Shown piece by piece: positions 4,342 through 34,230 of a stretch of 43,310 nucleotides of DNA; position 1 is the first letter of the stretch, and each line of letters starts with the position of its first letter. The stretch spans positions 167,805 through 211,114 of the forward strand of contig MHRF01000013.1 of assembly GCA_001820875.1 (NCBI GenBank), written 5' to 3'. The stretch is from Candidatus Taylorbacteria bacterium RIFCSPHIGHO2_01_FULL_46_22b (GTDB taxonomy: Bacteria > Patescibacteriota > Minisyncoccia > Phycocordibacterales > DSPV01). The translations under genes were made by a program, and so were the position numbers. The notes under the pieces were generated by a model. That model worked only from the letters and a program-made list of their open reading frames with translations. It did no database searches and was not told the origin of the DNA.

Positions 4342-4462
4342 CAAGGAAGCGTAGCTTCCGTTCGGGAATCGAAGCCCGATTGAGTATTTTTTCGAGTTTG
4401 GAAAACGAAGAAAAAATCCAATTGGGATACTGAATCGGTACGATTCGATTCCCGCCGTGGCC
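4342..4462 (+). ncRNA. tRNA-trailing structured element (Cys copy)
   Basis: Spacer hairpin GGAAGC-GTA-GCTTCC; P1 CGGGAATCGAA (4363-4373)/TTCGATTCCCG (4444-4454); P2 CCCGATTG/CAATTGGG; P4 GAATC-GGTAC-GATTC; ends with second copy of T-arm/acceptor 3' end. Confidence 0.75.
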
Positions 4463-33378: not shown

Positions 33379-33409
33379 AGTTTCACTTAGGTTAAAAGTT
33401 TCCAATCTG

Positions 33410-33552
33410 ATGGAAGAGGTGGTTAGAAACTTACAGTTTCAGTATACCTTTTGGCTAAAATTCTTGCAGATTGATTTTAGGCTCAAAAGGTTTTCAAATC
33501 CCACACGCAAACATTCCCATGTTTGCTCACCTACCTCGTCACTTCGTTCCTT
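33410..33552 (-). ncRNA. tRNA-trailing structured element (Ser copy)
   Basis: Minus strand GTGGGATTTGAAAACCTTTTGAGC-CTAAAAT...ATTTTAG-CCAAAAGGTATACTGAAAC-TGTAA-GTTTC; spacer hairpin GCAAACAT/ATGTTTGC. Confidence 0.78.
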
Positions 33553-33639
33553 CGGAGGAGGTGGGATTTGAACCCACGAGGAGCTTTCACCCCTGCCGGT
33601 TTTCGAAACCGGTGCCTTCAACCACTCAGCCACTCCTCC
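33553..33639 (-). tRNA. tRNA-Ser (CGA)
   Basis: GGAGGAG/CTCCTCC, long variable arm, anticodon CGA. Confidence 0.93.
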
Positions 33640-33640
33640 A

Positions 33641-33816
33641 TATATTCGCTCTGCTCACATGGAGGCCGCTTGCGGACCGTGACTTCGTGGTCTCTCGCTT
33701 CGCACCACAAGGGCACTCCCAATTTCTACACTCGCTTCTTCGCTCGTAAGAAATTTTGGTCGCTCGCGGATAGACATAAAGCAGTTTATGTCTATCCCAT
33801 CTCAGCCACTCCTCCA
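33641..33816 (-). repeat. Hairpin-rich element preceded by partial 5' copy of tRNA-Ser
   Basis: 16-bp copy TGGAGGAGTGGCTGAG (33801-33816) of tRNA 5' end (33625-33640); hairpin GATAGACATAAA/TTTATGTCTATC; 23-nt block shared with the Leu-UAA element. Confidence 0.75.
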
Positions 33817-33823
33817 GTCCGCA

Positions 33824-33865
33824 AAATATAGCATTTTTGCGGTTTTTTCAAAAGATGCTATATTT
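33824..33865. promoter_or_regulatory. Palindromic divergent tRNA promoter region
   Basis: AAATATAGCAT/ATGCTATATTT 11-bp inverted repeat; each arm holds a TGCTATATT extended -10 facing tRNA-Glu (+) or tRNA-Ser (-). Confidence 0.55.
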
Positions 33866-33880
33866 TCTCATGTAGTTAGT

Positions 33881-34078: not shown

Positions 34079-34230
34079 CAATGATTCGCAAGGACAGCTG
34101 GGTAGCTGTCCGAGCGAGACATCATTTTGACGTGCTGAGGGACTCGAAAGCCGGAGTCCACGAAGGTGGACGAGGCGGGGTCGCACAAATTTTCAGCAGA
34201 AAATTATGTGTGACCGAGTCCCATTACTAT
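34079..34230 (+). ncRNA. tRNA-trailing structured element (Val copy, divergent)
   Basis: Spacer hairpin GGACAGCT/AGCTGTCC; GGGACTCG (34139-34146)/CGAGTCCC (34215-34222) enclosing two hairpins (GTCCAC/GTGGAC and GGTCGCACA/TGTGTGACC). Confidence 0.65.

Follow-up and report, generated by a model that had tools for sequence, protein, structure and literature searches.

A tRNA-Ser(CGA) gene of an uncultured Paceibacterota bacterium as a putative doubly hit case of an apparently undescribed class of tRNA-rebuilding structured inserts

Genomic islands and prophages with tyrosine integrases enter tRNA genes and supply a copy of the 3' end, the displaced end being the direct repeat on the far side. 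REP/MITE-like (repetitive extragenic palindromic; miniature inverted-repeat transposable element) and IS200/IS605-type hairpin elements are non-autonomous and are mobilised by Y1 transposases, and elements of fungal mitochondria enter a gene and supply a replacement for its end; these last concern protein genes and involve homing endonucleases. Here we analyse a tRNA-Ser(CGA) gene and its flanks in a stretch of 43,310 nucleotides (the window; contig MHRF01000013.1, positions 167,805 to 211,114) of Candidatus Taylorbacteria bacterium RIFCSPHIGHO2_01_FULL_46_22b, an uncultured candidate-phylum (Paceibacterota) bacterium whose own genome is coded G000. This locus seems to have been hit twice by structured inserts that rebuild tRNAs, a widespread class and, so far as the tools used here can tell, one without a description. 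For G000 the surroundings of all 47 tRNA genes were read, and 147 genomes of the order were scanned for the elements; G002 and G004 represent the same family as G000, and G096 another family of the order. Below, X' denotes the antisense copy of the interrupted arm that each insert contains (in the 3' element, of the T-arm), and outer fragments are the displaced tRNA ends.

We lean towards the reading that two independent mobile structured inserts entered tRNA-Ser(CGA), each restoring the arm that it interrupted and leaving the old ends outside. One insertion would have occurred in the D-loop (the upstream insert) and another in the T-loop (the downstream element). The intact tRNA would have been kept by the supply of new positions 1-16 on the 5' side and new positions 56-73 on the 3' side, while the old ends would stay as outer fragments, the 5' one still joined to the ancestral promoter. 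The new arm, the loop and X' may form a long hairpin beside a folded core; X' would arise by fold-back copying of the target arm, and the element would enter hairpin loops next to GGTT at the DNA level. The pre-tRNA would then begin at the outer 5' fragment, and RNase P, whose RNA is present, would have to cleave it where the inner tRNA begins. The anatomy of the locus, the empty 5' sites, the covariation of core A, the retargeting of matched antisense and the near-restriction to one order are all matters of observation.

An earlier note, made from the letters of this DNA, had described on the minus strand a promoter, a 16-nt copy of the tRNA 5' end, about 160 nt of hairpins, the full tRNA-Ser, a 3' element and a degenerate acceptor copy. 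Repeat analysis, ARAGORN and Rfam recover the same order:

33823-33851, minus strand: promoter TTGAAA, 17 nt, TATTTT; the sole sigma-70-like site of the region, with the start expected near 33816
33801-33816, minus strand: outer 5' fragment TGGAGGAGTGGCTGAG, equal to tRNA positions 1-16 and ending in the D-loop; exact direct repeat
33641-33800, minus strand: upstream D-loop insert of 160 nt; missing in G002 and G004, with an orthologue in tRNA-Ser(CGA) of G096
33768-33797, minus strand: 13-bp hairpin of the D-type core, with the loop CTGC in AACTGCTT; perfect inverted repeat
33703-33762, minus strand: dispersed repeat of ~60 nt, CGACC-hairpin-GGGAGTGCCCTTGTGGTG, inside the upstream insert; 81-84% matches at several other genomic sites
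33679-33692, minus strand: decayed D-arm antisense GACCACGAAGTCAC; its G096 counterpart is the perfect 14-nt antisense GACCACTCTGCCAC
33666-33675, minus strand: small hairpin CCGCAAGCGG between anti-D and anti-acceptor; read from the sequence, with a matching hairpin in G096
33659-33665, minus strand: antisense of the acceptor 5' strand, CCTCCAT; intact, pairing with ATGGAGG at the tRNA start
33552-33640, minus strand: intact tRNA-Ser(CGA); ARAGORN and Rfam RF00005, 58.7 bits
33528-33537, minus strand: anti-acceptor piece of the 3' element, GAGGTAGGTG; complement of the acceptor CACCTCCTC with one bulge
33507-33526, minus strand: hairpin hp2 of the 3' element; 8-bp inverted repeat
33493-33504, minus strand: X' GTGGGATTTGAA, a perfect 12-nt antisense of T-loop and T-stem; inverted repeat, 100%
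33416-33504, minus strand: 3' element with core type A (model R1); 75.8 bits, E 1.1e-18, for one of the 14 copies from which the model was built; family covariation
33411-33426, minus strand: outer 3' fragment CTAACCACCTCTTCCA, read as the decayed displaced tRNA 3' end; an 11-nt stretch is 91% identical to the acceptor strand

The 16-mer TGGAGGAGTGGCTGAG stands exactly at 33801-33816 and again at 33625-33640, a spacing of 176 bp, and an exact repeat so close is far beyond chance. The insert between the two copies is hairpin-rich, and the 5' copy, insert and tRNA together fold at z = -6 (0/200 shuffles). The degenerate acceptor copy on the other side is CCACCTCTTCC at 33412-33422. The -10 box TATTTT, which had been placed directly before the partial copy, does end at 33823, about 7 nt ahead of it, and the proposed start of the transcript at this copy agrees with both the promoter prediction and orthology. 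A covarying inverted repeat around the promoter was tried as an operator and rejected; more simply, tRNA-Ser and tRNA-Glu are divergent, and the repeat consists of the -10 boxes of their two promoters.

The comparison with relatives free of the upstream insert, which the earlier note had called for, bears on the 5' side. In G002 and G004 tRNA-Ser(CGA) is divergent from tRNA-Glu as in G000, the promoter is alignable, the insert is missing, and the orthologous promoter runs directly into the tRNA. Since the promoter abuts the tRNA in these insert-free genomes, the outer 5' fragment may be taken as the ancestral start of the gene and the inner 5' end as the added copy; transcription most likely starts at the outer fragment, near 33816. 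At the same place in G096, the first 15 nt of tRNA-Ser(CGA) are copied ahead of an insert whose first hairpin and AACTGCTT loop are those seen in G000. This insert continues with the perfect anti-D-arm GACCACTCTGCCAC, a small hairpin, a 7-nt anti-acceptor TTTCCAT (against ATGGAAA), the tail CGAATATAT and the tRNA, and it lacks the ~60-nt dispersed repeat. The hairpin and loop of the D-type core are found in tRNA-Ser(GCT) of G003 as well. A strict pattern for the whole insert matched in G000 and G096 alone among the 147 genomes, so the D-type insert is either rare or too variable for a pattern. It is the mirror image, in the D-loop, of the plan of the 3' element.

Two side observations concern this flank. 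The dispersed repeat, CGACC-hairpin-GGGAGTGCYCTTGTGGTG (~60 nt; window 33762-33703, and loci L004, L005, L006 and L008), is often tandem and lies in intergenic regions and tRNA flanks. Upstream of tRNA-Arg (L078 and L077 in G003; L059 in G074) there is another type of D-loop insert, in which CCCC-hairpin-CTACGGGG comes after a copied tRNA start.

The element on the 3' side of tRNA-Ser recurs in the window after tRNA-Cys, two tRNA-Leu and tRNA-Lys, and a second core type follows tRNA-Val:

4362-4456, plus strand: type A 3' element of tRNA-Cys; 97.0 bits
4675-4764, plus strand: type A 3' element of tRNA-Leu(TAA); 99.7 bits
6478-6572, plus strand: type A 3' element of tRNA-Lys(CTT); 83.9 bits
6736-6825, plus strand: type A 3' element of tRNA-Leu(TAG); 99.3 bits; the distal 3' copy is perfect and followed by CCA
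34134-34222 (limits approximate), plus strand: type B 3' element of tRNA-Val(GAC); type B core, with 15 nt antisense to the 3' end of the tRNA

The plan is the same throughout: after the tRNA come a loop (often terminator-like), a piece antisense to the acceptor of that very tRNA, a hairpin, a second piece antisense to its T-stem and T-loop, a core of type A, B or C, and finally a copy of its 3' end. Counted from the listed flanks, it is present on 26 of the 47 tRNA genes of G000. The tRNA-Ser element shows it with a perfect 12-nt antisense of its own T-arm and with the downstream 3'-end copy in decayed form. tRNA-Asn was not found among the 47 genes; it may be interrupted or lie in an assembly gap.

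The covariation of core A is overwhelming. In the 14 G000 copies 93.3% of paired cells are paired, with 97 double changes against 31 in shuffles (0/500); 73 distinct copies of the order, in an alignment fitted to the model, give 93.9% and 511 double changes against 148. Model R1 has 21 matches in G000, of which 16 lie directly 3' of a tRNA. It has members in all five genomes of the family (one of them weak) and in 83 of the order's 147 genomes, where most copies directly follow a tRNA; outside the order a draw of 290 genomes of the phylum gave one weak match. When about 85,000 named species genomes were scanned with a pattern, the matches fell in entries titled Patescibacteria or its subgroups (Taylorbacteria, Kaiserbacteria, Zambryskibacteria and Nomurabacteria among them) and a few titled just 'bacterium' or 'uncultured bacterium'. 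The element class is nearly restricted to one order.

Rfam at gathering and permissive thresholds returned tRNA only, apart from a sub-threshold group I intron in G003; RF00028 matches neither 33380-33880 (E up to 10) nor the core-only copies (E up to 5), and a literature search found no description of the element class. The conserved loop of helix P4 (CTGTAAG) was considered as an anticodon arm and rejected, as its CGGTACG variants lack U33. Hammerhead-like and group I-like cores, judged by eye, were rejected for the absence of the needed motifs.

Which of the two 3' ends is the older one is suggested by the encoded CCA. It is found in none of the 26 element-bearing tRNAs of G000 and in 10 of the 21 without an element (p = 7e-5), although one of the ten, tRNA-Ala(CGC), is possibly a false CCA call. 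Of 42 distal copies five are followed by CCA, and of 42 proximal ends one, a comparison of few cases. As CCA is absent from the element-bearing tRNAs and more often found after distal copies, we read the distal copy as the original. The simplest reading of these sequences is that the functional 3' end was supplied at insertion, mirroring the 5' side.

The retargeting of the antisense is best seen in tRNA-Leu(TAA) and tRNA-Leu(TAG): their cores differ at one of 70 nt, yet each antisense fits its own tRNA over 11-12 nt. The G003 element nearest to that of tRNA-Ser (88%) sits on a different tRNA, one bearing a group I intron. The core-only type A form has a first hairpin of its own, GAG-N-GCGAAYAC-N-TGGAGC, and interrupts palindromes at GGTT; in G003 it splits AAAGGGTT/TAATACCCTTT (L083), while G000 holds uninterrupted copies. 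Retargeted antisense and core-only insertions at GGTT together favour mobility at the DNA level into hairpin loops. We would give about an even chance to the broader view that these structured mobile elements make up a superfamily not described before, almost limited to one Patescibacteria order, whose members enter the D-, anticodon- and T-loops of tRNA genes and rewrite their own arms from the target, so that each tRNA is rebuilt and each copy is complementary to its new host tRNA.

Several loci are listed here as observations in their own right. Core-only insertions lie at L083 787-857, L069 806-877, L072 311-408, L084 827-916, L033 1501-1577 and L079 875-967, beside GGTT-like motifs in palindromes or tRNA T-loop fragments. 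L036 65-305 (G003:C26) is the sub-threshold group I intron, located within a tRNA carrying a type A 3' element. Y1 (REP-associated-like) transposases are encoded at L171 1471-2148 and L172 1279-1968; they were set aside as candidate mobilisers, as these two Y1 genes of the genome carry their own unrelated flanking repeats.

Four points weigh against the two-insert reading. The distal-versus-proximal statistics of CCA rest on few cases; no transposase, integrase or reverse transcriptase was tied to the elements; and no clean filled/empty pair of close relatives was found for the tRNA-linked 3' element. The fourth point is the behaviour of X'. After correction for the part of the distal copy replaced by helix P4, the antisense agrees more closely with the intact tRNA than with the distal copy in 23 of the 42 pairs and less closely in one. 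Some bias enters here, since matching to the tRNA served to locate the antisense, and the automatic X'/X2 matching is approximate. Such tracking (23:1) is not predicted by the decay of a dead insert and hints at function or continuing homogenisation. X' may be kept by function or by template-switch homogenisation, or else it is the freshest part of the insert, and this tracking of the living tRNA is the main unexplained point of our model.

The same observation is an argument for a cis-acting RNA switch, in which X' competes for the T-arm and acceptor and controls folding, maturation or termination of the tRNA. In 23 of the 24 cases where the two fits differ, X' agrees better with the intact tRNA than with the displaced copy, and with either flank included the real acceptor stem is lost at the predicted equilibrium (0.0 bp, against 7.55 bp for the tRNA alone). 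Given this loss, the tRNA must be protected by early processing or by folding during transcription, and the latter would favour the tRNA. Moreover, many copies of X' lie beyond an intrinsic-terminator-like hairpin and so would rarely be transcribed, and the patchy occurrence (83/147), tandem copies, tRNA-less orphans and three core types fit mobile elements better than regulators. We consider a switch unlikely as the explanation of the locus.

Another possibility, already put forward in the earlier note, is that in the primary transcript the two outer fragments, 5' and 3', pair as a single functional acceptor-like stem with the real tRNA enclosed. The outer fragments can indeed pair according to the folding predictions (10.2 expected bp in the full transcript; duplex energy -15.9 kcal/mol), in which the distal 3' copy is the main predicted partner of the 5' copy. 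As a duplex, however, it pairs slightly better with the real 3' acceptor (-17.7 kcal/mol), and in G096 outer pairing weakens to 4.2 expected bp. Pairing is automatic here because both fragments copy opposite strands of one acceptor stem, and it would be a by-product of that copying. Besides, the fragments measure 16 and about 16 nt and, when joined, make no tRNA; each has its own antisense partner within its own insert. The plan of the 3' element is seen on 25 other tRNAs of G000 without a comparable 5' copy, and in G096 the same 5' insert is combined with a type B 3' element. As either flank is found on its own, nothing points to a function of the two together. Hence, of the proposed nested pseudo-tRNA, the part that stands is a tRNA placed, in evolutionary terms, between remnants of its own ancestral ends, while a single functional outer unit is improbable.

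Fully nested tRNAs do exist in the order, in Pro(GGG) of G000 and Leu(CAA) of G001, which lends the enclosing stem some plausibility. In L024 (G000:C13:17943-19413), at 701-772, an intact tRNA-Pro(GGG) lies inside the anticodon loop of an outer tRNA-Pro, whose 33-nt 5' half is upstream and 25-nt 3' end downstream; the joined halves fold as a cloverleaf. tRNA-Leu(CAA) in L082 (G001) and tRNA-Gly(CCC) in L041 (G051) are nested as well, the inner tRNA being bracketed by an inverted repeat in the outer anticodon loop. The outer halves of the G001 tRNA-Leu(CAA) still fold as a cloverleaf, and those of the G051 tRNA-Gly(CCC) gave no tRNA call by ARAGORN. Among further tRNA arrangements, L009 (G000:C1:13316-15021) holds a tRNA-Ser and other tRNA-like genes in an insertion within an apparent 23S rRNA gene.

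Tandem duplication of the tRNA, with decayed outer copies and no mobile element, would account for the arrays that do occur (L031) and for the resemblance of the anti-acceptor, hairpin and anti-T together to a shrunken tRNA with one arm. It leaves without explanation the covarying core shared by many tRNAs, the near-identical cores of Leu(TAA) and Leu(TAG), the T-loop antisense and the core-only insertions in palindromes outside tRNA genes, and we regard it as a poor candidate. Self-splicing or protein-spliced introns in tRNA loops, with the outer fragments as exons and the inner copies as intron, are very unlikely: the core-only form does split T-loops at GGTT/CGAATCC (L072, L084) and some tRNAs of this group do hold group I introns (L036), but in the linked cases an intact unspliced tRNA stands beside the interrupted copy, the distal 'exons' have in many cases decayed too far to yield a tRNA, the putative 3' junction has no conserved nucleotides and the core has no Rfam intron match.

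Many members of a large order of bacteria with small genomes carry the element class, which has no Rfam family. If it is mobile, as we are inclined to think, it is a parasite that can live in genes under the strongest constraint because it rebuilds them, and its specificity arms are made anew from each target. Pre-tRNA transcripts would be altered by long structured leaders and trailers, by old ends that mimic tRNA ends and by the loss of the encoded CCA.

Each of the known systems shares some traits with these inserts. Like the bacterial tRNA group I introns (RF00028), they are structured RNAs in tRNA genes, and one such intron is next to a type A element in G003; unlike the introns, they have a core of ~75 nt without an Rfam match and leave the tRNA intact without splicing. 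As with the fungal mitochondrial elements, the end of the host gene is displaced and replaced by an element-borne copy, although the inserts described here have no coding capacity. With REP and IS200/IS605-type elements they have in common short, dispersed, imperfect hairpins and precise insertion (here at GGTT) without a long target duplication; in contrast, the two Y1 genes of this genome are flanked by different repeats of their own, and to our knowledge REP elements do not copy an interrupted tRNA arm. From tyrosine-integrase islands the inserts differ in their size (~100-200 nt), in carrying no integrase, in the arm antisense and covarying core, in the occupation of 26 different tRNAs, where every element has the arm of its own host tRNA copied, and in the additional use of the D-loop with a copied 5' end. 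The copies of the tRNA ends stand ~130-180 nt apart, which leaves no room for an integrase gene beside the repeat, and no genome-wide search for a trans-acting integrase was made. Nevertheless, in both systems a functional tRNA is kept through a supplied 3' end, and the displaced end persists as a direct repeat.
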